DNA of 22,500 nucleotides, from the IMG/VR virus record IMGVR_UViG_3300044730_000295, positions 1-22,500 of that record; one strand, written 5' to 3'. Origin of the DNA: a virus. Below the pieces are notes generated by a model. That model was not told the DNA's origin. It made no database searches and saw nothing but the letters and a program-made list of their open reading frames with translations. Each line of letters starts with the position of its first letter. Position 1 is the stretch's first letter. Positions 1 to 19,973 of the stretch are shown here, one piece after another. Made by a program: the position numbers and the translations under genes.

Positions 1-1
1 A

Positions 2-343
2 GTAAATGTAAATGGTGACTTGTATGGCTTTATGGTATCAAAAGTTATTCCATCTATGCGTAAAGCATTATTTGATAATGGATGGAAAGACTCTTCCGAT
101 ACTAAAGATGATAGTGGCATAGATGTCATTATCGCAATCAAAGGACAACTGTTCTCAATTGCTTCTGACTTTACAGTATTACGTGATGAGAACGGATTCT
201 ACGGAGCAGGTAGTGGTGGCAATTACGCCGTAGGTGCACTCGAAGCGGGTGCAGATGTAGAAACCGCTGTACAAATAGCAATAAGGTACGACATCAACAG
301 TGGTGGCGTAGTTCAAATAGTAAAACAATCTGCAAGGAGATAA
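2..343 (+). CDS. HslV/proteasome-like Ntn-hydrolase peptidase, C-terminal part
   Basis: This reading frame is open to the left edge, so the N-terminus, including the expected catalytic threonine, is missing. About 113 residues are visible. The stretch GAGSGGNYAVGALEAG (near positions 203-250) closely matches the conserved GSGGNYA segment of bacterial HslV and the GSGS segment of 20S proteasome beta subunits, which helps form the active site. It is followed by a helix (ADVETAVQIAIRYD) and a final strand (GGVVQIVK), as at the end of the Ntn-hydrolase fold. The preceding part (IAIKGQLFSIASDFTVLR) fits the two strands before that motif. HslV normally works with the HslU unfoldase; no unfoldase is visible here. 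Placed at the head of a virion gene block, it might be a capsid maturation protease, but that is inference. An in-frame TTG at 20 is probably not the true start. The family call is fairly sure; the role is not. Confidence 0.72.
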   Translation, partial: VNVNGDLYGFMVSKVIPSMRKALFDNGWKDSSDTKDDSGIDVIIAIKGQLFSIASDFTVLRDENGFYGAGSGGNYAVGALEAGADVETAVQIAIRYDINSGGVVQIVKQSARR

Positions 344-345
344 TA

Positions 346-672
346 ATGGCAATGCCAATTAGAAATACAAAAAAAATTAAAAAAGACCCAATGACATCTA
401 CGAGTGAGGCAAAGCGCGAACGTACAGCCCAAGACCGTAGTACTGGTAAAAAGATTGGACCAAAAGCCTATGCTCAAAGAGTCATGGCTAAGCGTGCTGG
501 TAAGACAACCAAGAAACAAGAACTTGCTGCTTCTCGTCGCGGTGGAACTAAATCCGCAGACGTAAAGGGTAAAGGTTACGAGTCTAAAAAATATACACCT
601 AGTGTTGGTATAACAGTTGCTAACAAGAAGAAAACAACAAGAATTAACATGAATCCAAAAGGAAAAAAATAA
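346..672 (+). CDS. small lysine-rich basic protein, unknown function
   Basis: A 108-residue, very basic protein with lysine and arginine spread throughout, few hydrophobic residues and no membrane segment, so probably largely disordered or nucleic-acid binding. It starts at an ATG two bases after the peptidase stop and has a good ribosome binding site, AGGAGA at 335-340. Its stop overlaps the start of the next gene in a TAATG junction. I do not recognise a domain. It is one of three consecutive basic proteins before the large virion genes. Such proteins can be packaged with phage DNA or act on host nucleoid DNA; neither is shown here. A long antisense frame covers the same DNA but has no support. 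Confidence 0.75.
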   Translation: MAMPIRNTKKIKKDPMTSTSEAKRERTAQDRSTGKKIGPKAYAQRVMAKRAGKTTKKQELAASRRGGTKSADVKGKGYESKKYTPSVGITVANKKKTTRINMNPKGKK

Positions 673-773
673 TGCCAAAAGTAGGAAAGAAAGAATTCCC
701 ATACACAGCAAAAGGCAAGAAAGATGCCAAAGCCATGAAAATGAAAATGAAAAAGATGGGCAAGAAAAAATAA
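672..773 (+). CDS. 33-residue lysine-rich mini-protein
   Basis: A 33-codon gene that starts on the last base of the preceding stop (TAATG) and ends with TAA at 771-773. The product begins MPKVGKKEFPYTAKGKKDAK and ends in a run of Lys and Met. From memory, small proteins with the motif KVGKKxFPYTxKGxxxAK recur next to virion genes in many tailed phages, which is the main reason for calling something this short. Nearly half the residues are lysine, so it is strongly cationic. No function is known to me. Coupling to the flanking basic genes suggests they are made together. Confidence 0.65.
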   Translation: MPKVGKKEFPYTAKGKKDAKAMKMKMKKMGKKK

Positions 774-775
774 TT

Positions 776-1075
776 ATGCCAAAGTCGGAAAAAGATAAAA
801 AGAAAAAATCTAGACTTTCTATCATAGCACGTGAGGTTCGTGATATTCCCACTGCTCTGGGGACTGTTATTAAAGTTAAAAAGATTAGCAACAAAAAGAG
901 CAACACAATAGCAAAGAATGATTTAAAACGTCAAGTCCGCCAAGTAGGTAATGCAATTACAAAGGGCAAGTCTGGAACGAGTGCTGCTAAAGCAGTACCA
1001 ACAGGTAAGCGTAGAATGTCCGACGGGTACTCATTGGCTGTGCAAAAGACTCAGATGGGAAAGAAGCGTAAATAA
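776..1075 (+). CDS. small basic protein, unknown function
   Basis: A 99-residue basic protein with a lysine-rich head (SEKDKKKKSR), a short more hydrophobic region (LSIIAREVRDIPTALGTVIKV, about residues 14-34), and a basic tail ending MGKKRK. It starts two bases after the 33-residue gene and its TAA overlaps the next ATG at 1075. No Shine-Dalgarno is evident, so translation probably depends on coupling. I recognise no family. The composition matches the two genes before it, and the three form a cationic cluster; DNA binding is plausible but unproven. Confidence 0.7.
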   Translation: MPKSEKDKKKKSRLSIIAREVRDIPTALGTVIKVKKISNKKSNTIAKNDLKRQVRQVGNAITKGKSGTSAAKAVPTGKRRMSDGYSLAVQKTQMGKKRK

Positions 1076-1500
1076 TGTCAGAACAAGGCGGATTACGCAG
1101 ACCTGCTAAACCCGCCCCAGTTTCTGGACCAGGTGCACTATCTAAAAGAACTGATGGTGGACCAACTCAAGGTGCTCGCTACATGCGAGGCGGTCAATAC
1201 GGCGAGGGTCAAGAAATGATGGGGCTGCAACAGGGTGCCCCTATGGCAGCACAACCAAAGCAACGTATGGCTGCACCAAGAAACGTTGCACCTGTACCAA
1301 TTACGCCATTAATGGCACCAACGGAACGGCCAGATGAACCATTAACAACTGGTAATCCATTTGGTGCTGGTCCTGGCCCAGATATTTTATCTACCCCACA
1401 ACCTAAAAGGTTGTCAGAAGTATTCGCTCAAATTGCAGCGAACGACCCAACCAATGAAGCAAATCTAATTTATCAGTATTTACAACAACGAGGATTCTAG
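1075..1500 (+). CDS. proline/glycine-rich phage protein, probably virion-associated
   Basis: A 141-residue protein, mostly low-complexity Pro/Gly/Gln with a short ordered C-terminus (LSEVFAQIAANDPTNEANLI, about residues 111-130). The N-terminal motif PVSGPGALSKRTDGGPTQ followed by YMRGGQYGEGQEMM resembles, from memory, a recurrent hypothetical family encoded beside virion genes in many environmental phages. It has no enzyme motif or membrane segment. It overlaps its neighbours at both ends: ATG inside the upstream TAA, and its TAG inside the GTG of the 1636-residue gene. Co-translation with that large protein suggests an accessory or chaperone role, which is inference. Confidence 0.7.
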   Translation: MSEQGGLRRPAKPAPVSGPGALSKRTDGGPTQGARYMRGGQYGEGQEMMGLQQGAPMAAQPKQRMAAPRNVAPVPITPLMAPTERPDEPLTTGNPFGAGPGPDILSTPQPKRLSEVFAQIAANDPTNEANLIYQYLQQRGF

Positions 1501-4500
1501 TGGCCGAAGGCAGCAAATTAAGTAGTATTGTTTTTGATACAATGCCATCTGCGTATGTTGCTGCCAAGCAAACATATTTAACTAAAGAAGATGCAAATGA
1601 AATTAACAAATTTGCATGGTTTGCTAAAAAACATAACGACTTACTAAAGTTAAATCCTAAAGATGCTTCTGACCAATTTACTAGATTACATCCAGACATT
1701 CAAACAGCAATGAATGAATTGTTTGATACAAATTATGCAGAAGGTAAAGAACAAAACTCAACGTTTTTAAATACTGTTGGAAAGATTGTTACTCGTCCTG
1801 TTGGTGCGTTATTTGAAGGTTTACGTGATTATACTGAAACTGTAATCAGTAATCCATTTCGTCAGGCTGATGCAGCCCTTCGCCAAACTGGTGATAGTTG
1901 GGATGAAACCTACAATGGCGAAGCATACTTTGACCGTGAACGCGCAGCAAAAATAGAAAACTTTTATGGTGCTACTGTAGGTAAAATTTCTAGAATGATT
2001 GCAGCAGGCAAACGTCCTGGTGAAATTTTATTAGAGTTAAACACTGAAGAAGAGTTTGCAGCATTCGAAAGAATGATGGATGGCGATGAAGAGTTTGACC
2101 GTGCTGTAAAAGAATTTGATGATGCAAAGGTTTCTTTTGGTCGCAGGATGTTTAACTGGTTACAGCCAGGTGCTGGCACACATGGTGCACAACGTTGGAT
2201 TTATGACCGTGCGTCTGGTGTTGCTGATTTAGGTTATCAGATTTTTGCTGACCCATTAACTTATGCTACCCTTGGTGTAGGTACTGGCGTTCGTCTATTT
2301 GGTAAAACTGTTATTGAAGGTAGCCGTAGTTTAAAGGCTTTGCTTGAAGCATCTGATGAGCCAAATGCTTATACTACTAAATTAGAAAAAATATTTCGTT
2401 CACGTGGTGTTAATGAATATTGGGATAAAGTTGGTACTTTAATTAATGATTTAAATAGCAAAGATAAAGTAACTCGAGTTGCTGCTGCTAATAAAATTAA
2501 AGAAACTTTTCCAGAAGTTAGCGATGAATTTAAAGAAGTTCTTCGTAGTGCTAAAGTTGTTAATGCTGAATCTGCTAAAGGTTTCTTTATGGAAGCCGAT
2601 AATGTCCATAACTTAATGAATGGTATGGGCTTAGCCAAAGTTAATAAGGCTGTAATGCCTGCTTGGAAAGTTAGCAGAAGTATTAAAAGTAAATTACGTT
2701 CTGCTACCTTGGCTGCTATCCGAGGCGAAAATGATGAATTAGAAACAATTGGTACTATTGATAATATTGTTGCTAACGCTGAGCAACTAGCAAAATTAGA
2801 AACACGTGACTATGATTTATTGCAAGGCGGAGCAGACGTAATAAAAGAAACTAAAAAGCGTCGCGGTGTTATTGGTAAAGTAGAAAGACTTGCTTCTCGC
2901 TACCCAATATTTCCAACAGTTAACATTGGTGATGACTACGCACAGTCTAGTGAACTTGTTTTCCAAATGGTTCGCACTTATTTACCACGTTGGCATGCCA
3001 ATGGTGTCCGTGACCAATGGGAGAAGACTGACCCATACGGCCGTTTCTTAATGCTTAAAGGTATTTATATTCAGATGGCTCAGAGTATGGGTTTAACTGA
3101 TACCCGTGAAGGCCGTGAGTTTTTAGCGAAACAATTAGAAGTTCAATTTGGTGGACAGTATGCTCCTAAAATTCGATATAAAGAAGAAACTTTAGTTCCT
3201 ATTGCTAATACTTTATCTGAAAGTTTAGATAAAATTAAACAAAATGGTGGATTTTACCGCCCAGGTGAACGTGCTGGTGCATCATTTGCACCGCAATGGT
3301 TTCAGAATAAACCAGTTATTGCTAATGTTGACTTGGCTGAATGGGACCGCACTGCTAAAAACTTTAATTCTAAGTTACCATTTGTACCAAACGGCACTGC
3401 TGTTGGAAACGCACTAGACCAAGCCAACAATCATTGGGGTTTCTTTACATTATTCCCACGTAACGGTATGCGTTCAGCCCTTGAAGAACTATTATTCTTT
3501 GGACTTGAGGGAAGTGTACGGGAATTCTTTAATTACTTTAGAGCACGTGGTATTTCTCGCGCCCGTCGTCGTACAATTGCACCAGATGAGCAAACTCTTA
3601 CTGCTAAAGTCGGTTATAGAGTAGGGCAATGGAGTGGAAAATACTCTGAACAAGAATGGCAAACCGCAATTGCAGATAAGACTGGCGCTAAGTTAGCAAA
3701 ACTGCAGATTAAAAATGCAGTTAATGAAATTAAACGTTCTCCTGCAGGTAGAGTAGCATCTTTATTTAACATTAGTAAATTAACTCCAGAACAAGAAGCC
3801 CAATACATTCGTGATATGTACCGTTTTGGTCATATTAAAGATATGTCTGCAGAACTTACAACTACTAGTATTCAGGCTGGGCAGGCTATTGTTAGAGGCG
3901 GTACACTTACACCAGCCAATTCTATGCAAAGCAACTTTGGTTTACCAGAGGCTGTAAGATATAATATTGATTTATTAACTCAATCACAATTGGGTGTTAA
4001 GCCTAAACAAGGTATTAAAAAGGGCGATAAGTACGTCATGGCTAAAACAGCCAGACCAATGAATATTGATTTAGGTTCCCCAGAAGATATCTTTGGTATT
4101 CGTCCAGGTGTAGCATCTTGGTATGGTGCTTTAATTAGTCAAATTCAATCTGATTTAATTGGCTCTAAAATTATTCTTGACAACATTGATGACCCTGCTA
4201 AAGCAGTTGATGAACTTGTTAAGTACATAGGTAAAAATGAAAGAATTAAAAGAACATTAACAGGTTCAGTTTACTTTAATGAAAGCGCAAAAAGTAATGG
4301 TGAGCAAACAGCCCTAACACAAGTTGCAGGTGCTCAATATTTAATTCTTCGTGGTTTAGTTACAGATACTAAAGATGATGTAATTGAAGAACTATTACAA
4401 AAAATCTTTATTCGTAATGCTGATGGTACAGAAAAAGCATTTCAAAATCTAAATGGATTTTACCCAGAAGATTTACTTAACATAACAGTGAGCACTAAAC

Positions 4501-6410
4501 GTGCCCCATCTCAGGTGCAAGGATATCAGTACATACTGGCAACCGAAGACCCAGATAACGTAGCCAGCAAACTAGCAATGCTAGAAGAAAAAGGTTACAA
4601 TTTCATGCAGCGTCAAGTAGATATGACTGCTCGTGAACCTATCTTTATTGCTAGATACTTGGCTAATCGTAAAGAATTAGATAAAGCAGAGAAGGCTAGT
4701 ATCAATGCTATGGTTAATAATGGCTGGGAAGTGGCTCTTGCAAAGTCTGTTGCAGCAGAAAAATTCTCTAATCTAGCATATAAAAATGCCATGGAACGTA
4801 CTATTGCATACATGGATAACCCGCGTGTACGTAGTACTCTAGCATTTAATGCGCGTAACTTTGCTCGTTTCTACAGAGCAACAGAGGATTTTTATCGTCG
4901 TGCTGCACGTTTAGGTACTAAAGCACCTCAGTCTTTAATTCGTTTAAGACTAGGACTTGTAGGTTTAGACGCTAGTGGTTTTATTCATCAAGATGAAGAA
5001 GGCGAAGATTACTTTATTTATCCTGCCGATGATATTATCTATCAGGCAGTAAATACTTTCTCTACTATTCTTGGTCGTCAACCTGCATTAGAAGTTATGC
5101 CTGTAGAATTTACAAGCAAAATTTCTATGTTTACTCCATCATTAGACCCAGACTCAGCACTGCCATCATTCAATGGTCCAGTTGCAGCACTGCCAATATC
5201 TGCTATTCGTTACATGATGGGTAGAACAGATATGATTTCTGGTGAGTTAGAGGCTGGATTTAACCGTTACACAATGGGTGTCTATTCTGAGAACTCTAAT
5301 TTATTAGACATGTTAATACCTACAACAGTACGTAAGACTCTGAATTTAATTAGTGCTGCAAATCAAGATGAGGGTAACAAACAAATTCAGTCTGCAGCCA
5401 TGGCCGCTGCCGCTTACAATTCGGCTGCTGGTTTAGCACCTAGCGAAACTGATGACTTTGATACCTTAAAAAAGAAACAAGCACAGTTTCTTGTGACTGC
5501 TTCTAACATTATTACTATTCGTAATTTACTTGGTTTCTTTGCTCCTGCTTCTATTCAAATGGAAGAAATCAAAGACATACCAGATTATGTATTAGAAACT
5601 GGTACCACTAGATTAAGTTCTGAATATTATACGATTGTAAATGGATTGGCTGACAAAGGCTCAGCAGACCCATGGGGAGAAGCACTGGCTATTTTTACTC
5701 GTAAGAATCCAGGAAGGCTAGCCTATACAATTCCAAGGTCTGAGAACACTGGTTTAATTAAACTTAATAAGACTAAAGAAGCCGCAAATTGGGTACGAGA
5801 AAACGGTAACTTTATTAAGAAGTATGGCACAACTGGTGTATTATTTGCACCACAAATTGGTGAGTTTGATATCAATGCTTACACATTCTTAAAGTTACAA
5901 GGCTTTACTCAGAATCGTCCAATTGAAGACTTCGTAATGGAAATGGAAACCAAGAAGGCTCGCACTGAGTATGATGCTGTTAAGGCTAAGTGGCAAGAAA
6001 AAATTAATTCTACTCCTATAGAAACTGTTAAGTCTGCTTATCGCGCTCAATCAACAGAAGCATTGCGTGCTTTAAAGAATGCTAATCCATTACTAGCAGA
6101 ACAGTTAGCAGCGTATGAATTCAACACCTTTGAGCAACAAACTGGTGTTGATGAACTGCGGACTATGCTTGCTGCAGGAGATGCACCTAATCCTAAGATG
6201 GCAGAGAAACTATCTTTAATGTTAAAAGTATATGATAGTGCTCGTTCTATCTGGGCTATTGGTATGGGTGGAGAACAACTAACACCTGAACAAGTGCGAA
6301 ATATTCGCCAAGATTCAGTCGCTCAACTAGAGCGAATTGCTGGTAATGACCCAGCATTAAACCTAGCAATTGATAAACTATTTGCACCAGTACTTGAAAG
6401 GTCTCGCTAA
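1500..6410 (+). CDS. very large (1636 aa) putative internal virion / DNA-ejection protein
   Basis: The largest gene in the window. It uses a GTG start inside the TAGTG junction, and its TAA overlaps the ATG of the next gene. The product is mostly alpha-helical and rich in charged residues, with a few hydrophobic stretches, for example VADLGYQIFADPLTYATLGV near residue 240 and the aromatic-rich segment HWGFFTLFPR followed by ALEELLFFG near residues 644-667. There is no signal peptide and I see no catalytic motif. Length, composition and position beside three other virion-like genes including a lysozyme fit the ejection proteins of short-tailed phages, such as the T7 gp16 type, but I see no sequence identity to them. 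A tape-measure protein is the main alternative. That seems less likely because it lies upstream of the capsid genes with no tail-tube genes nearby. Confidence 0.6.
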   Translation: MAEGSKLSSIVFDTMPSAYVAAKQTYLTKEDANEINKFAWFAKKHNDLLKLNPKDASDQFTRLHPDIQTAMNELFDTNYAEGKEQNSTFLNTVGKIVTRPVGALFEGLRDYTETVISNPFRQADAALRQTGDSWDETYNGEAYFDRERAAKIENFYGATVGKISRMIAAGKRPGEILLELNTEEEFAAFERMMDGDEEFDRAVKEFDDAKVSFGRRMFNWLQPGAGTHGAQRWIYDRASGVADLGYQIFADPLTYATLGVGTGVRLFGKTVIEGSRSLKALLEASDEPNAYTTKLEKIFRSRGVNEYWDKVGTLINDLNSKDKVTRVAAANKIKETFPEVSDEFKEVLRSAKVVNAESAKGFFMEADNVHNLMNGMGLAKVNKAVMPAWKVSRSIKSKLRSATLAAIRGENDELETIGTIDNIVANAEQLAKLETRDYDLLQGGADVIKETKKRRGVIGKVERLASRYPIFPTVNIGDDYAQSSELVFQMVRTYLPRWHANGVRDQWEKTDPYGRFLMLKGIYIQMAQSMGLTDTREGREFLAKQLEVQFGGQYAPKIRYKEETLVPIANTLSESLDKIKQNGGFYRPGERAGASFAPQWFQNKPVIANVDLAEWDRTAKNFNSKLPFVPNGTAVGNALDQANNHWGFFTLFPRNGMRSALEELLFFGLEGSVREFFNYFRARGISRARRRTIAPDEQTLTAKVGYRVGQWSGKYSEQEWQTAIADKTGAKLAKLQIKNAVNEIKRSPAGRVASLFNISKLTPEQEAQYIRDMYRFGHIKDMSAELTTTSIQAGQAIVRGGTLTPANSMQSNFGLPEAVRYNIDLLTQSQLGVKPKQGIKKGDKYVMAKTARPMNIDLGSPEDIFGIRPGVASWYGALISQIQSDLIGSKIILDNIDDPAKAVDELVKYIGKNERIKRTLTGSVYFNESAKSNGEQTALTQVAGAQYLILRGLVTDTKDDVIEELLQKIFIRNADGTEKAFQNLNGFYPEDLLNITVSTKRAPSQVQGYQYILATEDPDNVASKLAMLEEKGYNFMQRQVDMTAREPIFIARYLANRKELDKAEKASINAMVNNGWEVALAKSVAAEKFSNLAYKNAMERTIAYMDNPRVRSTLAFNARNFARFYRATEDFYRRAARLGTKAPQSLIRLRLGLVGLDASGFIHQDEEGEDYFIYPADDIIYQAVNTFSTILGRQPALEVMPVEFTSKISMFTPSLDPDSALPSFNGPVAALPISAIRYMMGRTDMISGELEAGFNRYTMGVYSENSNLLDMLIPTTVRKTLNLISAANQDEGNKQIQSAAMAAAAYNSAAGLAPSETDDFDTLKKKQAQFLVTASNIITIRNLLGFFAPASIQMEEIKDIPDYVLETGTTRLSSEYYTIVNGLADKGSADPWGEALAIFTRKNPGRLAYTIPRSENTGLIKLNKTKEAANWVRENGNFIKKYGTTGVLFAPQIGEFDINAYTFLKLQGFTQNRPIEDFVMEMETKKARTEYDAVKAKWQEKINSTPIETVKSAYRAQSTEALRALKNANPLLAEQLAAYEFNTFEQQTGVDELRTMLAAGDAPNPKMAEKLSLMLKVYDSARSIWAIGMGGEQLTPEQVRNIRQDSVAQLERIAGNDPALNLAIDKLFAPVLERSR

Positions 6411-7531
6411 TGGCATTAACTGATGAGCAGTTATTAAAAACTGCTCTTGTTGATTTAAATACTTTTGAGAAGCGTAGACTACAAACTTTACTACGTGCAG
6501 AACTTAATAAAGTAAATGCTCAAATTAAAAAGCAATCAGAAAAAAGTACTAAGGGTAAAGAATTTGTAACTACAGGTACTAGTATTCAGCCTTCAGTTGA
6601 TTTAACTAAAGGCCCTCTTGCACCTGTAAAGCAAGATAACTTACAAGAACAACAAGATGAATTACTACGTAAACTTGATAGGATAGAATCATCACTTTCG
6701 GTTAATGAAAGATTAAATCAAACTGTTGGGTTTGGTACTGCTCAAGGTTCAGCAGTTGGTGGATTAAAATATGTTCTTTTGAATGAAGATGAAGAACAAG
6801 GACTTGTACAAATATTTAATCCTGAAGATGAAGAAGAAGACATTAACACTGGTTTTTTAATTTATCAAGAAGAAGATAGGGCTAAACCTAAAGTACCTGG
6901 TGCTCGTCGTACCATTTCTTCTACTAAAGTTATACCTGTTGAGCAGTACAATCAAAAAATATTTAATGAATATTTTAGTAACCCAGAAGCAGTTATTCAA
7001 GAAAAGAAAAGATTAATTGAGGCTGGAGAATTACCACGTAGTACCGTTGTAGATGGCGAAGTTGATTCTGCATTTCGTAATGCAATGACTAATATTGCAC
7101 GTAAAGTTAGCACCGAAAACTATCGCCGTTTTCAACTTAATCCAAAAAGTAAACTATTTACTTTAGATGAAGGTTTGGATTACTTTATCCAAAGAGGTGG
7201 TGCTGACAAAACCACCACAACTGAAACTACAATTAGTACAAAGGACGAGGCATATAGTACACTTAATAATGCCTTGCGTGAGTACTTAGGAAGGGAAGCA
7301 ACGCAGGACGAACTCAGCCAGTTCACCGCTCAGTTAAATGCTTTTGAGCGTAAGAACCCTGTAGTTCGAACCACGACTGGAACTAGTGCAACTGTCTCTG
7401 GAGGGACAGGTGGTGCTGGCGGAAGGATGGCGACTGAATTTGCTCGCTCCCAAGAAGGTAGTGCTGCTTTTAGGGCTGGCACTTATTACTACGATGCTCT
7501 ATTGGATGCCATCGACAATCCATTATTCTAG
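6410..7531 (+). CDS. 373 aa putative internal virion protein
   Basis: Begins with ATG inside the stop of the giant gene (TAATG at 6408-6412) and ends with TAG at 7529-7531. The N-terminal region (residues 1-45 and about 82-102) looks coiled-coil, with regularly spaced Leu, Glu and Lys. An acidic stretch (EDEEEDIN) lies near residue 140. The C-terminal third holds a segment ALREYLGREATQDELSQFTA followed by NAFERKNP, a pattern I associate with internal proteins of actinobacteriophages, then a Gly/Ser/Thr-rich linker and a final YYYDALLDAIDNPLF. No enzyme motif is visible. It most likely partners the neighbouring large proteins in the capsid interior or ejection machinery; this comes from context. 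Confidence 0.6.
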   Translation: MALTDEQLLKTALVDLNTFEKRRLQTLLRAELNKVNAQIKKQSEKSTKGKEFVTTGTSIQPSVDLTKGPLAPVKQDNLQEQQDELLRKLDRIESSLSVNERLNQTVGFGTAQGSAVGGLKYVLLNEDEEQGLVQIFNPEDEEEDINTGFLIYQEEDRAKPKVPGARRTISSTKVIPVEQYNQKIFNEYFSNPEAVIQEKKRLIEAGELPRSTVVDGEVDSAFRNAMTNIARKVSTENYRRFQLNPKSKLFTLDEGLDYFIQRGGADKTTTTETTISTKDEAYSTLNNALREYLGREATQDELSQFTAQLNAFERKNPVVRTTTGTSATVSGGTGGAGGRMATEFARSQEGSAAFRAGTYYYDALLDAIDNPLF

Positions 7532-7541
7532 GGCTGTTGAA

Positions 7542-9065
7542 ATGGCAAAATCAATCTCAATAGAAAAAATAGATAAAATAGAAAATCTTAATACAGTTGA
7601 AGGTCGCATTAAATATGCTATGGATTTCTTTACCAAAAGAGGTTATAGTGAAGCGGCTGCTGCTGGTATTTTAGGTAATCTAATTGGAGAAGGTAGAAAC
7701 CTAAAGCCAACTCAAGAGCAAATTGGTGGTGGTCCTGGCAGAGGTATTCTACAGTGGACTGAGGATGCTCGTTGGTCTGCATTAGAGAAGTGGGCCAAAG
7801 GACGTAAACTTAACCCATTGGATTTTAAAACTCAAATTGCATACATTGACCATGAATTAAAGGCTTATTCATCTCGCGGTGAAATTGATTTGAAAGCCTA
7901 TAAGGAATCTAATAATGTAGACCAAGCAACAGAGATATTAATGTCTAGTTATGTTAAACCTGGTAAACCAAGATTAGATACACGTGTAGAGGGTGCTAGA
8001 AGTGCCCTACGTATCATAGGTTCTGATATGGCTAACACTGAAACAATAAAACTATCAAGCGGAGATACAGTGGCAGAAGATAAAATAACGCCTAAAGATG
8101 ATTACCAGAAAATCAGCGATAAATTAAACGCTGCTAATGGTGACATAGGCGCATTAACTGAACAAGAAAAGCGTATCTTTGCTGAGCGTTATGCCTATGC
8201 TTATGGTTTATTTGTTAACAACAAAGAGTTGATGAAGGTACTTACAACTGCCATTAAAGAAAACTGGACTGATGTAAAATTTAAATCTGCTATTCAAGCC
8301 AGTAAGTGGTATAGTAAAAATACTGAAAACCAACGTCTTGCTCAGGCAGCAGAGGCTTCTGATACTGCTAGTTATGGTAAGACTATTAATGATATTACTA
8401 GAGAATTATCAAACCGAATTGCTATATTTACTGGCAAAAGGATTTCAAGTTCTGACCCAAAGTTAGTTGAGCGGGCTAAAAAATTATACCGTGATAATTA
8501 TAACAATTGGAAAAGTGAAGTTGATAACACAGTTAAGGCAGAGTTTTTAACTTTAGAAAAAAATCCAGATACTATCTTTGATTTAGGTGGTACTCTAGGA
8601 ACTTACCAAGATGATTTTATGGCGCAGGCTCGTAACTATGGCCAGCGTCTCAGTGAAGATATGGCTGCTACTTATGCTATGCAAGTAGCAAAGGGTGATG
8701 TAACTCAAGACGATATCATTGATAAGATTCGTCGTAATGCTGCCAACCTATACCCTGGATATAAAGATTTAATTATGCAAGGCGTTACTGTAAAAGAAAT
8801 TGGAGATACTTATAGTAGTTGGGCTTCTCAGTTACTAGAAGTAGATGAGAGCGAAATTGATATTACTAATCCTGTCGGTATTGGTAAGTATGTCTCAGAC
8901 GCTTTAACTTACAAAGATGATAAAGGCAACTATTCCTCTATGCCTTTAGGAGCATTTAAACAAAAATTACGTAGTGACCCACGTTGGCAAACAACTGAAA
9001 ATGCTAGGGATACGTATTTAGATTTTGGTAGAAAACTCGTAAACAAAATAACTGGATTGGGTTAG
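7542..9065 (+). CDS. virion protein with N-terminal phage-lysozyme-like domain (cell-wall-degrading)
   Basis: Residues about 20-155 resemble the phage tail lysozyme family (Phage_lysozyme2 type): a helix ending FFTKRGYSEAAAAGILGNLI, then GEG with E50 as the probable catalytic glutamate, then GGGPGRGILQWT (62-73), then a helical part ending AYIDHELKAY. It would cut peptidoglycan, most likely as a packaged enzyme that helps DNA cross the wall. The remaining 350 or so residues are helical and unrecognised, and end with a conserved-looking KLVNKITGLG. I chose the ATG at 7542 because an AGGG lies at 7530-7533 and the domain begins soon after. The open frame extends to 7386, but that part overlaps the end of the 373 aa gene and reads as nonsense. 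Total 507 residues. A lysozyme domain inside a long virion protein parallels T7 gp16. The domain call is good; catalysis is unproven. Confidence 0.75.
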   Translation: MAKSISIEKIDKIENLNTVEGRIKYAMDFFTKRGYSEAAAAGILGNLIGEGRNLKPTQEQIGGGPGRGILQWTEDARWSALEKWAKGRKLNPLDFKTQIAYIDHELKAYSSRGEIDLKAYKESNNVDQATEILMSSYVKPGKPRLDTRVEGARSALRIIGSDMANTETIKLSSGDTVAEDKITPKDDYQKISDKLNAANGDIGALTEQEKRIFAERYAYAYGLFVNNKELMKVLTTAIKENWTDVKFKSAIQASKWYSKNTENQRLAQAAEASDTASYGKTINDITRELSNRIAIFTGKRISSSDPKLVERAKKLYRDNYNNWKSEVDNTVKAEFLTLEKNPDTIFDLGGTLGTYQDDFMAQARNYGQRLSEDMAATYAMQVAKGDVTQDDIIDKIRRNAANLYPGYKDLIMQGVTVKEIGDTYSSWASQLLEVDESEIDITNPVGIGKYVSDALTYKDDKGNYSSMPLGAFKQKLRSDPRWQTTENARDTYLDFGRKLVNKITGLG

Positions 9066-9067
9066 TA

Positions 9068-10522
9068 ATGACAATTGATTATTCACAAATGAATATAGAT
9101 GGTGGTGGTTCTTTTAATGTACCAACACCTTCATCTGCTGCCTTAGACAAATTAATAAAGAATCAAACAGCAGATGAATTGCGTATTCAAAAAACCAAAC
9201 CAGGTTCTCCTGAATTTAAAAAAATTGAAGATAGAATAAATGAACGTCAAGCATTAATTGATGAAACAGAAAGTAAGTTGGTAACAAAGTTACCCGGATT
9301 TCCAAAAGAAACTACTACTGGTGATACCTTAGTATTCGGTGGTCAAAACTATAGCGTTGCTGATTTAATAAAATCAATAGAAAGCAATATTGGTTCAAAA
9401 AATTTTGATTATTCTGTTAATAGTCCTGGTTATGCATTAGGTATTTTACAAGCAACTCGTCCTGATTTAGCAGCAAAGTATGTAAGCCGTTCTATACCTG
9501 GACCTGGAGGTAAAGGTGTACCAGGTTACGGCGTCATAATTTATAAAGCAGGTGAGGAACCACCAGAGGAGCAAGATGCTGGCTCGAAAATTATTCCTGG
9601 TGCTGCTGTTACTGTGGGTCAAAGTCTTGCAGAAATACAAAAAGATTTAAAGAAAACAGAAACGGCTAATACTGCTAGTGCACAACTAAAAGTATTTTTA
9701 AAGTCTTTATTCTTTGACCAGGAAGATGCTTTCATTGACGAGATTGTTAAGTCGGCCTATCCAGACTTTATAAGTGGATTAGACTCTGATACTATTATTC
9801 TTAAAATGCAAGACTACACCAATCCTAATAGTGTATTTTCTAGGCGTTTTTCTGGCAACGTAGATTTAGTTAAAAAAGGTATCGAACCTCTTAATGCTGA
9901 AACTTATCTTGCACAAGAAAGAGCATACAGAGAAGCATTAGTAACTAGAGGATTAGGTGAACTTGCTAATCGTTCTACCTTTGGTCAACTAGTTGGAAAT
10001 CAAGTATCTCCTTTTGAGTTAGAAGATAGAGTTACAAAAGTATTTGACATTTATGACAGTGCTGATACTGGATTAAAGTCTGAGTTACAAACAACTCTTA
10101 AACTTGACCCATTGTCTACACGCACCTCAGTGGCCAAAGCATTGCTTCTTGGTGACAAGGGAGCAACTGAATTACAACGACAAATACGAACTGCTGAAGT
10201 TGGAACCGAGGCTAGGTCTCGTGGACTTGATGTTAGTGCTGCTTCTGAGTTAGCAGGTATGGGTGTAACCCGTGAACAAGCCCGTGCTGGATTTGAGCAA
10301 ATTGCCTTGACTCAACCACGTTTAACACAACTATCAGAGATGTACACAAGTACAACTCCAGATGCTTCTGGATTGCAACGAGAGTTAGAACGAGAGCAGT
10401 TCCAAGGAATGCAATCTCAACGTCGCCGTCGTCTTGCTGAGCAAGAGCAATCAGCGTTCATGGGACAGTCAGGTACTGCTGGAAGTACAAGCCTAGGTCG
10501 TAGACGAACAGGCTCATATTAG
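9068..10522 (+). CDS. 484 aa putative internal virion protein
   Basis: Starts two bases after the lysozyme gene and is the last gene before the capsid block. It has a mixed N-terminal part with Gly/Pro-rich linkers, a helical middle, and a distinctive C-terminus: GVTREQARAGFEQIA near residues 399-413, then an Arg/Gln-rich region (QSQRRRRLAEQEQSAFMGQS) and a Ser/Gly/Arg tail ending RTGSY. That C-terminal layout matches, from memory, a family of virion proteins in phages of Actinobacteria. No catalytic motif is visible. With the three genes upstream it probably forms the internal or ejection set. A portal or protease function is not supported by anything I can see. Confidence 0.6.
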   Translation: MTIDYSQMNIDGGGSFNVPTPSSAALDKLIKNQTADELRIQKTKPGSPEFKKIEDRINERQALIDETESKLVTKLPGFPKETTTGDTLVFGGQNYSVADLIKSIESNIGSKNFDYSVNSPGYALGILQATRPDLAAKYVSRSIPGPGGKGVPGYGVIIYKAGEEPPEEQDAGSKIIPGAAVTVGQSLAEIQKDLKKTETANTASAQLKVFLKSLFFDQEDAFIDEIVKSAYPDFISGLDSDTIILKMQDYTNPNSVFSRRFSGNVDLVKKGIEPLNAETYLAQERAYREALVTRGLGELANRSTFGQLVGNQVSPFELEDRVTKVFDIYDSADTGLKSELQTTLKLDPLSTRTSVAKALLLGDKGATELQRQIRTAEVGTEARSRGLDVSAASELAGMGVTREQARAGFEQIALTQPRLTQLSEMYTSTTPDASGLQRELEREQFQGMQSQRRRRLAEQEQSAFMGQSGTAGSTSLGRRRTGSY

Positions 10523-10526
10523 AATC

Positions 10527-10551
10527 TAAGTGAATCGGTCGGCCTCACTTA
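10527..10551 (+). other. inverted repeat in the intergenic region before the scaffold gene
   Basis: TAAGTGA at 10527-10533 pairs with TCACTTA at 10545-10551, giving a perfect 7-bp stem around an 11-base loop (ATCGGTCGGCC). It lies just after the stop of the 484 aa gene, in the longest non-coding stretch of the window (10523-10638, 116 bases). There is no T-run after it, so it is a weak terminator at best; an operator or RNA processing site is also possible. The rest of the gap shows no convincing -10/-35 pair and no open frame with support, only the scaffold ribosome binding site at its right end. Confidence 0.4.
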
Positions 10552-10621
10552 TGTAAAAGTCCGATAGTAGCATCCGATGTAATTACCCCGATTGCATTGT
10601 GCGCTGCGAATAACAACAAAG

Positions 10622-10630
10622 AAAGGGAGA
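10622..10630 (+). promoter_or_regulatory. strong ribosome binding site of the scaffold gene
   Basis: AAAGGGAGA lies eight bases before the ATG at 10639. It decides the start: the open frame reaches back to 10597, but the earlier candidate lacks such a site. Confidence 0.7.
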
Positions 10631-10638
10631 TAGTTGCT

Positions 10639-11103
10639 ATGAGCAACAATCAAGAATGGTATGACGACGATGATGACTACGGTATTGAGGATGACTCAAC
10701 CGATTTAGTCAAGAAGTTGCGCCGTGCCGCACGTGCTAATGAAAAGCGTGCAAAGGAACTGGAAGCAGAACTGCAATCACTCCGTACGGAGCAACGCAAG
10801 TCAACTGTCAAATCCGTTCTAGAGTCCATGGGTGTTCGCACATCAATTGCTAAATACATCCCATCCGACATCGATGCATCTGCAGAGGCTATCGAGGAAT
10901 GGGTATTTGAAAATGGCGAAGACTTTGGAATTGTCGTTCAAAACGACGGGCCTAAACAAGAAAGAACACTTGCTCAAATGAGACAAATGGATGCCATCAC
11001 TACTGATGCCGTATCACCTTTTGGCTTAGATGACATGATGTTACGCCTTGACCAAGCCCAATCTGCTGAGGAAATAGAAAATCTAATCTTTGGCAGTAAT
11101 TAG
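10639..11103 (+). CDS. capsid scaffolding protein
   Basis: A 154-residue acidic protein directly upstream of the major capsid gene, the classic place for a scaffold. The N-terminus is very acidic (EWYDDDDDYGIEDD, residues 6-19), followed by a charged coiled-coil-like helix (about 23-58, ending SLRTEQRKS). Next comes a segment STVKSVLESMGV ... IAKYIPSDIDASAEAIEEWV, which matches my memory of scaffold proteins of actinobacteriophages. Its role is to guide capsid subunits into a prohead and then leave. The start at 10639 follows a strong Shine-Dalgarno sequence. The gene is richer in C-ending codons than the large genes before it, like the capsid gene, which fits high expression. Confidence 0.75.
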   Translation: MSNNQEWYDDDDDYGIEDDSTDLVKKLRRAARANEKRAKELEAELQSLRTEQRKSTVKSVLESMGVRTSIAKYIPSDIDASAEAIEEWVFENGEDFGIVVQNDGPKQERTLAQMRQMDAITTDAVSPFGLDDMMLRLDQAQSAEEIENLIFGSN

Positions 11104-11120
11104 TAACTACTAAACTACAA

Positions 11121-11127
11121 AAGGAAA
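11121..11127 (+). promoter_or_regulatory. ribosome binding site of the major capsid gene
   Basis: AAGGAAA four bases before the ATG at 11132, inside a 28-base spacer after the scaffold stop. It gives the capsid gene its own initiation instead of the overlap coupling used by most neighbours, in keeping with the need for many copies. Confidence 0.6.
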
Positions 11128-11131
11128 CTAA

Positions 11132-12142
11132 ATGTCAACTGTTTATACTGCCCTCTCGGGCGGCGCACAGTCAACAAATGGTGGCCTTGGTGGCGGTCAG
11201 TATAACTCTGCTTCTAACGCAGGTACCTTCACACCATCCAATGGTGCAGGTCTCGTTCAGAAAGCATACGACCGTCTTGTTGAGTTCGCACTACGCTCTC
11301 AGCCACTACTTCGTAGTGTTGCTGACAAGCGTCCAGCGCAACAAGCAATGCCAGGTTCATCAGTTGTTCTACAAATCTACACAGATTTGTCACAGGCTAC
11401 AACTGCTCTATCAGAGCAAGTTGACCCTAACTCAGTAGCACTAGGTACACCTTCACAGGTTACCGTTACACTAGCCGAATACGGAAATGCTGCACTTGTA
11501 ACACGCAAGTTGCAACTATTCAGCCTAGCCGATGTTGACCCAGCAATTGCTGACATCATCGCATTCAACATGGCTGACAGCGTTGACGAAGTTGCTCAGA
11601 CCACACTACGTGCTGGCGACAACGTATTCTATGGTGGTGCTGCAACCTCTACAGGAACCGTCACATCAGGTATGGGATTGACTTCTGCTCTTGTTCGCAA
11701 GACAGTAGCCAAACTACGTGCAGGTAAAGCCGTTCCTCGTAAGGGTTCAATGTACTGGGCTGCAGTGCACCCAGAAGTTTCACATGACCTACGCGCCGAG
11801 ACAGGTGCTGGCGGTTGGAGACTTCCACATGAGTATCAGTCAAATGATAACATCTGGGCTGGAGAGATTGGTGAGTACGAAGGTGCTTACTTTATCGAGT
11901 CCGCCCGTCTATACAACGCTACAGATGGTGCTACCTCTGCACGTGTATTCCGCTCATACTTCGCTGGAAAGCAAGCATTGGCAGAAGCCGTATCAGAAGA
12001 GCCACACGTAGTGATTGGTCCTGTTACAGACAAGTTAATGCGTTTCCGTCCAATCGGATGGTACGGAGTACTTGGCTTTGCAATCTACCGTCAGGCAGCA
12101 TTGTATCGCATTGAAACAGGCTCAAGCATTAACGCAACCTGA
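11132..12142 (+). CDS. major capsid protein (N4 gp56 / P22-like coat family likely)
   Basis: A 336-residue protein right after the scaffold. A Gly/Ser/Asn-rich N-terminus of about 35 residues is followed by a helix (LVQKAYDRLVEFALRSQPLL), then MPGSSVVLQIYTDLSQ, LSEQVDPNSVALG, TVTLAEYGNAALVTRKLQLF and AFNMADSVDEVAQTTL. This order is typical of the N4 gp56-type coat family, which has the HK97 fold. The C-terminal half includes a DHALYR-like element, here HPEVSHDLRAE, and RPIGWYGVLGFAIYR. It forms the icosahedral shell. Codon use is shifted to C-ending codons and the gene is followed by a strong hairpin, both suiting a highly expressed product. No protease cleavage site is evident from sequence alone. 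Confidence 0.85.
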   Translation: MSTVYTALSGGAQSTNGGLGGGQYNSASNAGTFTPSNGAGLVQKAYDRLVEFALRSQPLLRSVADKRPAQQAMPGSSVVLQIYTDLSQATTALSEQVDPNSVALGTPSQVTVTLAEYGNAALVTRKLQLFSLADVDPAIADIIAFNMADSVDEVAQTTLRAGDNVFYGGAATSTGTVTSGMGLTSALVRKTVAKLRAGKAVPRKGSMYWAAVHPEVSHDLRAETGAGGWRLPHEYQSNDNIWAGEIGEYEGAYFIESARLYNATDGATSARVFRSYFAGKQALAEAVSEEPHVVIGPVTDKLMRFRPIGWYGVLGFAIYRQAALYRIETGSSINAT

Positions 12143-12784: not shown

Positions 12785-12930
12785 TGTGTGCAACTTGTGG
12801 ATGTAAGCATATTAATTACAAGCACCGTGCAGGTGAAATGATTGCTGACCCAACTGGCAACCAACCATTTACTAGCGGTGGATACAAGGTTCCTCCAATG
12901 CCTAGGACAACTAAGAATGGCAAGCAGTAA
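12784..12930 (+). CDS. 48 aa Cys-motif mini-protein
   Basis: Starts with ATG inside the TAATG junction at 12782-12786, with AGGAG at 12772-12776 as ribosome binding site. The product begins MCATCGCKHINYKH, giving Cys at 2, 5 and 7 and His at 9 and 14, a compact cluster that could hold zinc or iron. A Pro/Gly/Lys-rich tail follows. Its end overlaps the next gene by 14 bases. The support is the tight junctions on both sides, the good ribosome binding site and the unusual Cys-rich head. Function unknown. Confidence 0.65.
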   Translation: MCATCGCKHINYKHRAGEMIADPTGNQPFTSGGYKVPPMPRTTKNGKQ

Positions 12931-13207
12931 AGACTCACGCCTAGCCAGAGCAGGCGTATCAGGTTACAACAAACCAAAGCGTACTCCTACCCATCCTAAG
13001 AAGTCACACATTGTAGTGGCTAAAGAAGGTAGTCAAGTTAAGACTATTCGATTTGGTGAGCAAGGCGCAAAGACTGCGGGCAAACCAAAGGCTGGCGAAG
13101 GTGAACGCATGAGAAACAAGCGTGCCTCGTTTAAGGCTCGTCACGGTAGTAACATTGCTAAGGGCAAGATGTCAGCAGCATACTGGGCAGATAAGGTTAA
13201 GTGGTAA
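12917..13207 (+). CDS. 96 aa basic protein of a widespread phage family
   Basis: I place the start at ATG 12917, with AGGA at 12904-12907 upstream. The open frame reaches back to 12842, but that part overlaps the Cys mini-protein and looks unrelated. The product has the recognisable sequence RTPTHPKKSHIVVAKEGSQV, then KTIRFGEQGAKTAGK, and near the end SFKARHGSNIAKGKMSAAYW followed by ADKVKW. From memory, small proteins with exactly this KxxTIRFGxQG ... SFKARH ... KGKMSAAYWAxKVKW layout are common in marine and other environmental phages, in virion gene blocks. It is strongly basic with a short conserved core, consistent with nucleic-acid or capsid binding, but no role is established to my knowledge. 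Confidence 0.75.
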   Translation: MASSKDSRLARAGVSGYNKPKRTPTHPKKSHIVVAKEGSQVKTIRFGEQGAKTAGKPKAGEGERMRNKRASFKARHGSNIAKGKMSAAYWADKVKW

Positions 13208-13902
13208 TGAAAGACGCAAAGGTTGACCAGTACGGCAACGTTATGGTTTACGAAAATGGTAAATGGGTTCGAGATACATCTATTACTAATCGTATTAAAC
13301 TTGCTATAAAGCGTGATAAAGTTAAAGACTTATTAGGTACTGTTAACAACAACGTTAAAATTACTCAAGAAATAATTAATAAAGTAAATCAAAAATTAAT
13401 GATAGCCGAAAAGGGACGAGGAGTTACTGGGTCTTTAACACAAGAAACTGGTCCTAAAAATAAACCTTTATATAAAGATAAACCACCTCGTACAGAACCT
13501 AAAGCCCCACCTAAAGATACAACAGCCAAGGCTAGGGAAGCAATTGATACTAAACAGACTGCTAAAGAAGCACAAAAATTAAAAACTCCTGAGTTTGAAA
13601 TCTTTAAAAAAGTAACTGATGGCAAGCCTGAAGTAAAAGTTCTTTACAAGGGTGAAGAAGATGCTTCTTTAAAGAAAGCCATGTGGAAAATTGTACAAAA
13701 TCCAAATGCATTAAAAGGTAAAGAGTCTATTAGAATTGGTAACAAAAGTGTACCAATTTCAATCTTAAGACAATTTTGGAAGGCTATGCCTAAAGAAGTT
13801 TCTAAATCAATCGTTACTAAAAAACCAACACCTAAAGGCGGAGTCATGAGAGGTGGAGTCATGCTCACTGGTGGTGGCGGTTTAATAGAACAAATAAAGT
13901 AA
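13207..13902 (+). CDS. 231 aa lysine-rich protein, unknown function
   Basis: Starts at ATG 13207 in a TAATG overlap; an in-frame GTG six bases earlier is less likely. The N-terminus MKDAKVDQYGNVMVYENGKW looks like a small beta unit. The centre (residues about 80-130) is Lys/Pro/Thr-rich and probably disordered. A more ordered region follows (FEIFKKVTDGKPEVKVLYKG ... MWKIVQNPNALKGKESIRIG). The tail is Gly-rich. Base composition is clearly more AT-rich than the capsid gene, like the large ejection-type genes. I recognise no family. Its location suggests a virion or assembly role. Confidence 0.65.
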   Translation: MKDAKVDQYGNVMVYENGKWVRDTSITNRIKLAIKRDKVKDLLGTVNNNVKITQEIINKVNQKLMIAEKGRGVTGSLTQETGPKNKPLYKDKPPRTEPKAPPKDTTAKAREAIDTKQTAKEAQKLKTPEFEIFKKVTDGKPEVKVLYKGEEDASLKKAMWKIVQNPNALKGKESIRIGNKSVPISILRQFWKAMPKEVSKSIVTKKPTPKGGVMRGGVMLTGGGGLIEQIK

Positions 13903-13915
13903 AGAAGAAATAATA

Positions 13916-14107
13916 ATGGCAACTAAAAAACCTAAACCTAAATCTAAAGTAAATGCTGCAGGTAACTATACCAAACCTGGTATGCGTAAGGCGTTGTTTA
14001 ATAAGATTAAGGCTGGCTCTAAAGGCGGAGACCCTGGTGAGTGGTCTGCTCGTAAGGCTCAACTACTTGCTGTGCAGTACAAGAAGGCTGGCGGAGGTTA
14101 CAAGTAA
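13916..14107 (+). CDS. 63 aa basic protein with WSARKAQLLA motif
   Basis: A 63-residue protein: a lysine/proline-rich head, then GNYTKPGMRKALFNKIKAGS and KGGDPGEWSARKAQLLAVQY ending GGGYK. The motif GGxPGxWSARKxQLLAxxYxxxGGGY is a recurrent small domain that I remember from many bacteriophages and also from giant DNA viruses of protists (possibly the family labelled DUF5872; to be confirmed). The role is unknown. The conserved Trp-Ser-Ala-Arg-Lys suggests binding to a nucleic acid or protein surface. Its stop overlaps the next ATG. Confidence 0.75.
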   Translation: MATKKPKPKSKVNAAGNYTKPGMRKALFNKIKAGSKGGDPGEWSARKAQLLAVQYKKAGGGYK

Positions 14108-14343
14108 TGGCACTGGCTAAGTCTCAACAGTCTTTAAAGAATTGGTCTAAGCAAAAGTGGAGAACCTCTGATGGTACTCCATCTAAGGGTAAGAAAAGAT
14201 ATCTACCTGATGCAGCATGGTCTGCGTTAAGTCCTGCCGAGAAAGCAGCCACTAACAAAGCCAAGGCTCAGGGTAATAAAAAAGGTAAACAATTTGTTAA
14301 GCAACCTAAAGGGATTGCTAAGAAGACAGCAGGGTACAGATAA
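14107..14343 (+). CDS. 78 aa basic protein with KWRTSDGTPS ... RYLP motif
   Basis: Contains SLKNWSKQKWRTSDGTPSKG, then KRYLPDAAWSALSPAEKAAT, then KKGKQFVKQPKGIAKKTAGY. This whole layout (QKWRTxxGxPS, RYLPxxA, SPAExAATxxAK, KGKQFVxQPxxIAxKT) is one I recall from small proteins in phages and in large eukaryotic DNA viruses, with no assigned function. It lies directly after the WSARK protein with a TAATG overlap, and the two families often look like companions. Very basic, soluble, no membrane segment. Nucleic-acid binding is plausible but unshown. Confidence 0.75.
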   Translation: MALAKSQQSLKNWSKQKWRTSDGTPSKGKKRYLPDAAWSALSPAEKAATNKAKAQGNKKGKQFVKQPKGIAKKTAGYR

Positions 14344-17781: not shown

Positions 17782-18681
17782 ATGACTGTTTCTCGATTAA
17801 AGGGAAATAAAGGTAAGTTCTGGGACCAAGTTACTGTACTTCCATTAACTGTTGATTACTTAGTAGTTGCAGGTGGTGGTGGCTCTGGTGGCGGACAATA
17901 CCTTAACGGTGGTGGTGGCGCAGGTGGACTTCGTTCAACAGTCACTGCGACTGGTGGCGGTGGAACATTAGAAAGTACACTTACCCTGACTACTTCAACT
18001 AACTATACAGTTACAGTAGGTGCAGGTGGTGTGCAAGATGTTGTTGGCAATAACTCTGTATTTTCAACTATTACATCAACTGGTGGTGGTAGAGGTGCAG
18101 GCTTCGGTGTTTATACTGCTACATCTGGTGGCTCTGGTGGTGGCGGATGTGAAACCGTAGCAACAAGAGGTACAGGTGGTGCTGGAACAGCCAACCAAGG
18201 ACGTGCTGGTGGTAATTATACAGATAACGCACATCCTATCCAAGGTGGTGGTGGTGGAGCAGGTACTGCAGGTGGAAATTCTGGAACTACTACTGCTGCT
18301 GGTAATGGTGGTAATGGTGTTGCTGTATCAATAACTGGTTCGTCAGTAACTTACGCTGGTGGTGGTGGTGGAAGTGGTTGGAGTAGTGGAAGTGGAACCA
18401 TTCCAGGCGGAACTGGCGGTGGAGGTAATGGTTTTTGGTCTGCTAGTGGTTCTGCTACAGGTGGCAGTGGAACTGCAAACTTAGGCGGAGGCGGAGGTGG
18501 AGGTTATGGTGTTTCAGCAATTGCAGGTTCTGGTGGTTCTGGAGTAGTAATCCTTCGTTATCCATCTAGATATACTATCACAGTAGGTGCAGGATTAACT
18601 GCAGATGCTACTGGTACCGATGGTTCTTATTCATACAAAAAATTTACAGCAGGTACTGGAAATGTGAGTTGGTCATTATGA
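17782..18681 (+). CDS. glycine-rich (polyglycine) putative receptor-binding protein, copy 1
   Basis: A 299-residue protein in which glycine dominates. The conserved head has MTVSRLKGNKGKFWDQVTVL, then VDYLVVAGGGGSGGG, GGLRSTVTATGGGGTLESTL and STNYTVTVGAGG. Many GGGGG runs follow, then SSVTYAGGGGGSG and GSGVVILRYPSRYTITVGAG, and a tail ending KKFTAGTGNVSW. It matches the glycine-rich domain seen in phage tail-tip proteins. In the known gp38 adhesin of phage S16, such runs form a polyglycine-II sandwich and the loops between bind the host surface; structural likeness here is inference. Its stop overlaps the start of copy 2 in an ATGA junction. The long glycine tracts also create spurious open frames on both strands. 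Confidence 0.75.
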   Translation: MTVSRLKGNKGKFWDQVTVLPLTVDYLVVAGGGGSGGGQYLNGGGGAGGLRSTVTATGGGGTLESTLTLTTSTNYTVTVGAGGVQDVVGNNSVFSTITSTGGGRGAGFGVYTATSGGSGGGGCETVATRGTGGAGTANQGRAGGNYTDNAHPIQGGGGGAGTAGGNSGTTTAAGNGGNGVAVSITGSSVTYAGGGGGSGWSSGSGTIPGGTGGGGNGFWSASGSATGGSGTANLGGGGGGGYGVSAIAGSGGSGVVILRYPSRYTITVGAGLTADATGTDGSYSYKKFTAGTGNVSWSL

Positions 18682-19586
18682 CAGTGAATAGACTAAGAGA
18701 TGCTGGTGTTAGGTTTAATAGTAATAACACTGTACTTCCATTTAATGTTGATTACTTAGTAGTTGCTGGTGGTGGTGCTGGTGGTAGATATGAAAATTCA
18801 GGTGGCGGTGGTGGTGGTGGTTTGCGTTCAACAGTTACTGCAACTGGCGGTGGGGGTTCTTTAGAAACTGCTTTAGGGCTTACTAAATCTACTAATTACA
18901 CAGTCACAGTTGGTGCTGGTGGTGCTGGTGGTGTCATAATTGGTGGTAACGGTCAAGATAATTCAGGTTCTAATTCTGTTTTTGCAACTATCACTTCAAC
19001 TGGTGGTGGTGGCGCTGGTGGTGATTCAAGTGCTGGTCGCACAGGCGGTTCAGGTGGTGGTAATGGTTATGTAAATACTACTACTCCAAATAACGGCACA
19101 GCAAACCAAGGATTTACTGGTGGAATTGGCGCTGGCGTTACTTCTCCTGCTTACGGAGGAGGAGGTGGCGGTGGTGCTGGCGGTGGCGGTGGCGCTGGAA
19201 CTGGCTCAGCAGGTGGCGCAGGCGGTGTTGGTGTGAGTGTTTCAATTACTGGCAGTTCACTTGCTTATGCTGGCGGTGGCGGTGGTGCTGCCAATGGCTC
19301 ACCTACTCCTGCTCCTGGTGGCTCAAGTGTTGGTGGTAATGGCGCGACTAACCCTGTTGACGCTACAAGTGGAGTTGCAAACAGAGGTGGTGGCGGTGGT
19401 GGAACTGGTAGTGATGCTGGTGGCTCGTCAGGTTCTGGTGGCTCAGGCGTAGTGATTGTTAGATGGCTTACTTCTGAAGGCACAATTACAGTAGGTGCTG
19501 GTCTAACAGCAGATGCCACTGGCACTGACGGTTCATACTCATACAAGAAATTTACTGCTGGCACTGGTAATGTCAGTTTTGCATAA
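18678..19586 (+). CDS. glycine-rich (polyglycine) putative receptor-binding protein, copy 2
   Basis: A 302-residue paralogue of the gene before it. I start it at the ATG at 18678, which overlaps the previous stop (ATGA); a TTG nine bases earlier is in frame but less likely. The same head appears (MTVNRLRDAGVRFNSNNTVL, VDYLVVAGGGAGG, GGLRSTVTATGGGGSLETAL, STNYTVTVGAGGAGG). The same tail is nearly identical to copy 1 (TITVGAGLTADATGTDGSYS ... KKFTAGTGNVSF). The middle differs in length and in the residues between glycine runs, which would be the exposed loops. It probably sits at the tail or fibre tip, as suggested for copy 1. Confidence 0.75.
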   Translation: MTVNRLRDAGVRFNSNNTVLPFNVDYLVVAGGGAGGRYENSGGGGGGGLRSTVTATGGGGSLETALGLTKSTNYTVTVGAGGAGGVIIGGNGQDNSGSNSVFATITSTGGGGAGGDSSAGRTGGSGGGNGYVNTTTPNNGTANQGFTGGIGAGVTSPAYGGGGGGGAGGGGGAGTGSAGGAGGVGVSVSITGSSLAYAGGGGGAANGSPTPAPGGSSVGGNGATNPVDATSGVANRGGGGGGTGSDAGGSSGSGGSGVVIVRWLTSEGTITVGAGLTADATGTDGSYSYKKFTAGTGNVSFA

Positions 19587-19598
19587 CAAGGAGAATAA

Positions 19599-19973
19599 AT
19601 GGCACACTACGCGTTTTTAGACGGAAACAACATAGTCACTGAAGTAATAGTGGGTGTTGATGAATACATTACTCAGACAGACCTAGACGGCACAGATGTC
19701 GGTGGGTCATCTGAGGCTTGGGAAACTTGGTATGGCAACTTCAGAGGACAACTCTGTAAGCGTACTAGTTACAATGGCAACTATCGCAAGAACTATGCTG
19801 GCATTGGTTACACCTTTGACAGTGTAAGAGATGCTTTTATTCCTCCTAAGCCATACCCATCTTGGATACTAAATGAAGATACTTGCCTATGGGATTCACC
19901 AGTGCCAAGACCAGAAGGTGAAGGTCTATGGGATTGGGATGAGGATTCACTGAACTGGATTGAGCGAGTCTAG
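19599..19973 (+). CDS. 124 aa conserved phage protein of the tail-fibre region
   Basis: A compact protein with MAHYAFLDGNNIVTEVIVGV, then WYGNFRGQLCKRTSYNGNYR, KNYAGIGYTFDSVRDAFIPP, KPYPSWILNEDTCLWDSPVP and LWDWDEDSLNWIERV. From memory this family (H/YAFLDxNNIVTxVIVG ... KRTSYNGNxRKNYAGIGYTYD ... KPYPSWxLNEDTxxWxxPVPxP) occurs in very different phages, including marine cyanophages and pelagiphages, near fibre and tail genes. Function unknown; a fibre or baseplate attachment role is possible. It has the best ribosome binding site here, AAGGAGA at 19588-19594, and lies between glycine-rich copies 2 and 3. Its TAG overlaps the GTG of copy 3. Confidence 0.8.
   Translation: MAHYAFLDGNNIVTEVIVGVDEYITQTDLDGTDVGGSSEAWETWYGNFRGQLCKRTSYNGNYRKNYAGIGYTFDSVRDAFIPPKPYPSWILNEDTCLWDSPVPRPEGEGLWDWDEDSLNWIERV

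Follow-up and report, generated by a model that had tools for sequence, protein, structure and literature searches.

A proteasome-like Ntn hydrolase encoded behind the portal gene of actinobacterial phages: probably an accessory enzyme

The virus record analyzed in this study, which comprises 22,500 bases in its entirety and is referred to as the window, encodes at its left edge a protein that is well supported as a complete Ntn hydrolase with an N-terminal threonine, belonging to the HslV/BPH group and having intact catalytic residues. The accessory status of its gene is likewise well supported, and the encoded enzyme is best explained, with fair probability, as an accessory Ntn hydrolase of Actinomycetota phages that trims or degrades restricted unstructured proteins and is dispensable for capsid maturation. 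Phage-borne relatives are already known, namely PHROG 1040 and AAH/PPH (Fuchs 2021, PMC8665760); new here are this actinophage lineage and the polymorphic slot behind its portal gene. The following features of the window are considered:

2..343, plus strand: C-terminal portion (residues 65-177, 113 aa) of the 177-aa Ntn hydrolase of proteasome-like HslV/BPH type, recognized from the open reading frame, profile matches and the overlap with contig L001
74..121, plus strand: predicted pore loop (protease residues 89-104), located by the structure model and net acidic in each of the 41 homologues
209..229, plus strand: GSGGNYA motif of the protease, from the sequence and the homologue alignment
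346..1075, plus strand: small Lys/Arg-rich genes (108, 33 and 99 aa) in the variable slot between the protease and phrog_8200
1075..1500, plus strand: phrog_8200 gene, the right border of the variable slot
10639..11103, plus strand: scaffold-like protein (phrog_7813), a marker for head-module conservation
11132..12142, plus strand: major capsid protein (MCP), N4-gp56 family

The open reading frame at positions 2-343 (plus strand) runs open into the left window edge, and residues 1-64 fall outside. Since the window represents the whole record, the 5' portion of the gene beyond the edge was viewed in relatives. Contig L001 (IMGVR_UViG_3300031951_012814), showing 99.8% nucleotide identity to window positions 1-447, carries the complete 177-aa protease gene at 4098-4631, and the gene was also found in L002 (96%) and L003 (86%), resulting in three related contigs with the full gene. 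The N-terminus of the L001 protein, MTTIVGVQHKTGCVLAADSQTTWGERPF, opens with Met-Thr-Thr; thus, the leftward extension proposed in the original prediction revealed a Thr directly after the initiator Met, and the conserved Lys is present as well. The GSGGNYA signature named there is indeed located at nucleotides 209-229. Values of 0.094 for dN and 0.99 for dS were obtained for L001 versus L003, and the protease gene is under purifying selection. A pseudogene or chance open reading frame was excluded by the dN/dS ratio near 0.1 together with the invariant catalytic residues.

Although no match was obtained in a Pfam scan of the fragment 2-343 alone, this fragment matched phrog_1040 ('peptidase HslV family', E=1.1e-17) and the solved BPH (1.3e-5). 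The full 177-aa protein passed the Pfam PF00227 cut-off (28.7 bits versus 22.4) and matched phrog_1040 over its whole length (2e-31), and a profile built from 41 viral homologues matched BPH (4e-13) and HslV (5e-11). The equivalents of Thr1, Lys33 and Gly47 (T2, K35 and G48) were invariant in all 117 aligned homologues, and that of Asp17 (D18) was kept in 114 of them. The AlphaFold model (pLDDT 91.7, pTM 0.88) features helices at residues 50-59, 71-89, 137-145 and 150-160 plus a terminal strand and adopts the four-layer Ntn fold; in a Foldseek search, Thiobacillus BPH ranked on top (TM 0.78), followed by 20S beta subunits and HslV. The assignment to HslV-type Ntn hydrolases was therefore borne out by PF00227, phrog_1040, the BPH and HslV profile matches and the predicted proteasome-like structure, and neither a lack of Ntn hydrolase matches in the profile search against HslV and the 20S beta subunit nor an upstream sequence devoid of the N-terminal Thr and core strands was encountered. 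The full protein reached only 22.7 of the 157.75 bits required for the NCBIfam HslV equivalog and missed the 20S equivalog cut-off by a wide margin. A cellular origin was rejected, as a genome scan yielded only five loci, all from proteobacterial or related metagenome-assembled genomes, at 24-36% identity.

Among solved structures, BPH (PDB 5ovs, 5ovt and 5ovu) represents the best match by both profile and fold. Both proteins share the Thr1/Asp/Lys/Gly active site, a longer acidic pore loop and the lack of an unfoldase partner. Their sequence identity amounts to approximately 24%, and they differ in that the protein described here is phage-borne; BPH forms a tetradecameric double ring, whereas the ring of the phage protein is predicted. 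With HslV, the phage protein has the fold, the catalytic residues and the GSGG motif in common; however, the HslV loop is short, and the acidic loop of the phage protein resembles that of BPH instead (PMC5777263, PMC8665760). It further differs from HslV in scoring far below the equivalog cut-off and in that no HslU-type AAA_2 gene was found. The searches for S78, ClpP and AAA_2 covered 15 related records, among them G001 as a close relative, and excluded the window record; no AAA_2 unfoldase was detected in these, in agreement with the original prediction, according to which no unfoldase partner is visible in the window. A Pfam scan of ten window proteins revealed no protease. An HslVU system was rejected in view of the missing AAA_2 gene and the low equivalog score.

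AAH and PPH are group I proteasome homologues known from phages (Fuchs 2021, PMC8665760), and the protein of this study resembles both in residing on tailed phages, lacking a propeptide and having a compact subunit. PPH comprises approximately 140 aa without helix H2, whereas the phage protein has 177 aa and includes helix H2 (50-59 and 71-89 both being present); PPH membership was ruled out by length and helix content. The protein is compatible with AAH (reference example WP_035979212, PMC8665760). No phage of actinobacteria was found to carry AAH by Fuchs et al. (PMC8665760); the group I proteasome homologues of the present lineage would fill this gap if they belong to AAH.

In this lineage, terminase and portal come first in the late block. 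The protease follows, then a group of small basic genes and phrog_8200; next are a gene for a 1636-aa protein, three genes of which one encodes a tail lysozyme domain, the scaffold-like gene and the N4-gp56-type capsid gene. In L001, the protease ATG lies one base past the portal stop, and the gene is the third of the block, behind terminase and portal, and does not head it as had originally been assumed. Where present in this lineage, the protease was nearly always located immediately behind the portal gene (100 loci, spacing of -3 to 19 bp). The set of genes between the protease and phrog_8200 varies among L001, L002 and L003. Small Lys/Arg-rich proteins (21-42% K+R) occur in the late operon of the window at 346-1075 and 12842-14343.

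To describe the slot behind the portal, 80 viral contigs were picked by portal similarity alone. The protease occupied this slot in 29 of them (plus), whereas portal was followed by phrog_8200 without the protease in 42 contigs (minus), mostly fragments; the remaining nine were left unassigned. On the portal tree, which like the protease tree is a quick tree calculated without bootstrap, the plus label required eight changes, at least seven of them being forced by well supported branches. One plus contig, L017, is nested in a minus clade having an 82-aa acidic gene in place of the protease. Its protease clusters with that of L041, whose portal is placed elsewhere in the portal tree, suggesting that L017 gained the gene horizontally. 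Small acidic proteins (79-84 aa) that look similar by eye occur either together with the protease in this slot or instead of it; they are sited directly behind the portal in L014, L015, L016 and L018, and further examples were seen in L091 (557-796, past the portal end) and L007 (8033-8287).

The gene was also encountered at other sites. In the phage represented by L067, the protease gene lies in a neighbourhood of primase- and nuclease-like genes and is read in the opposite orientation to the head genes, and the L048 phage carries a divergent copy (E=4e-12) in its replication region. Homologues in DSL-LC01, Hum25 and DSS3P8 are embedded among non-structural or unknown genes. Of the three minus contigs near 39-40 kb, L015 carries no copy and the other two have a copy elsewhere, so counting occupied slots may underestimate how often the protease activity is retained. 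In L005, L096, L097 and L101, a protease outside the portal slot was observed at most approximately 1.2 kb from a WhiB-like gene (regular-expression match).

The original prediction had considered an N-terminal-threonine-class capsid (prohead) maturation protease, which would process the scaffold, portal or capsid protein while the head is being assembled. This role is consistent with the location of the gene between portal and scaffold/capsid genes at a near-fixed spacing behind the portal, which resembles the genomic place of serine prohead proteases (S78, ClpP-like), and with the finding that no S78 or ClpP-type protease was detected in the 15 related records. The fold and nucleophile of serine prohead proteases are unrelated to those of the phage protein, and, unlike their genes, the present gene is absent or relocated while the capsid is unchanged. 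The MCP of the window shares 72-79% identity with the MCPs of the slot-minus L032, L051, L067, L046 and L048, and at most approximately 72% (long alignments) with those of slot-plus phages. The length of the short MCP N-terminal extension, sought as support for a cleaved propeptide, showed no link to the protease gene: it follows the capsid lineage, and the same length classes occur in plus and minus phages. The Streptomyces phages FlowerPower and WRightOn, both complete, possess homologues of the portal, phrog_8200, scaffold and capsid genes in this order and lack any protease copy. Furthermore, protease copies reside among replication genes, and LeeroyJenkins encodes a homologue in addition to a separate annotated capsid maturation protease. 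Hence, the gene is no constant partner of the capsid, given the occupied (29) and empty (42) slots among 80 contigs and the slot-minus state of the closest capsids. Since closely related viruses assemble the same capsid although the gene is absent from them or sits elsewhere, the protease is most likely a dispensable helper. A capsid maturation role was rejected as the leading reading on the polymorphic slot with unchanged capsid, and is regarded as quite unlikely; the putative role in host protein turnover, also raised originally, fits better. As a caution, a protease encoded between portal and capsid genes is not always a prohead protease.

According to the preferred explanation, that of an accessory hydrolase, removal of the initiator Met would expose Thr1 without a propeptide, as in the family, and the conserved Asp17, Lys33 and Gly47 equivalents would complete the active site. 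The subunits probably form a closed, BPH-like ring with an acidic pore loop, in which hydrolysis would proceed ATP-independently and with narrow specificity, no AAA+ unfoldase being involved, as the AAA_2 search suggests. The gene appears to be swapped into and out of the slot between portal and phrog_8200 and to sit also among replication genes; in infected cells, its product most likely trims or degrades a limited range of unstructured proteins of host or phage origin, and capsid maturation would not require it. Three points weigh against this explanation: the near-constant place directly behind the portal would also be expected from a role in head assembly; the slot pattern may overstate how dispensable the activity is, considering copies elsewhere and the fragmentary state of most minus contigs; and BPH, the nearest solved relative, was inert on standard substrates, which renders proteolysis here putative (PMC5777263). 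Anbu had likewise displayed no in vitro activity (PMC5777263).

A more specific proposal, that the ATP-independent phage proteasome-like ring is a counter-defence or host-reprogramming protease which spread horizontally among actinophages and repeatedly settled behind the portal, is judged rather unlikely. Packaging of the protease together with the portal and large virion-block proteins, for action on host proteins at entry, would agree with the position of the gene in the late operon, next to the portal and preceding the gene of the 1636-aa virion-block protein, but protease copies outside the structural block make such a virion or ejected protein very unlikely. 20S proteasomes are present in many actinobacteria, and the phage protein shares its superfamily with HslV and the 20S beta subunits of the host; it might therefore co-assemble or compete with a host particle of proteasome or HslV type and thereby alter host protein turnover. 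This interference is of very low probability, however, with an identity to 20S beta subunits of only approximately 20% (structural alignment) and an intact active site, which an inhibitor would not need. The least probable alternative is a non-proteolytic Ntn enzyme using the same Thr1 chemistry, e.g., a connectase-like protein ligase. Connectase is a proteasome homologue acting as a ligase (PMC8665760), and the missing in vitro protease activity of BPH (PMC5777263) would fit in; yet the model lacks the insertion characteristic of connectase between strands 3 and 4.

All 15 related records searched contained WhiB, which marks actinobacteria as well as their phages (PMC10202952), and among 14 control genomes only Corynebacterium matched. 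The ct2KA10 record OX376640 features the same gene order, and OX376641 also carries the protease gene; these records represent the cultured Planktophila phages LanE43AprE7 (E7) and F5, which infect 'Ca. Planktophila' (PMC10202952). The window is accordingly assigned to a virus of freshwater actinobacteria. As PHROG 1040 and AAH/PPH illustrate, phage proteasome-like proteases are widespread; a literature search found no study on the function of phage HslV-like proteins and no paper on the role of these groups in phages. The interest of the present lineage lies mainly in the two cultured lytic phages E7 and F5, whose host is an abundant freshwater bacterium, and in the natural plus and minus relatives, which together make the function testable.

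Additional observations concern other genes of the lineage. Three tandem paralogous Gly-rich, collagen-like tail-region proteins of approximately 300 aa each are encoded at window positions 17782-20884. The L003 homologue of the 1636-aa protein (5310-7880) contains an inserted segment, GGAVGADTAWAKSGERYGFETIAHSF...KLGKPVYVFD, that appears SLOG/YspA-like by eye. In the close relative L175, an open reading frame at 10444-11262, with MCxLCF near its start and NNSDGFGFAI, resembles class II glutamine amidotransferases by eye and is possibly a second Ntn hydrolase.
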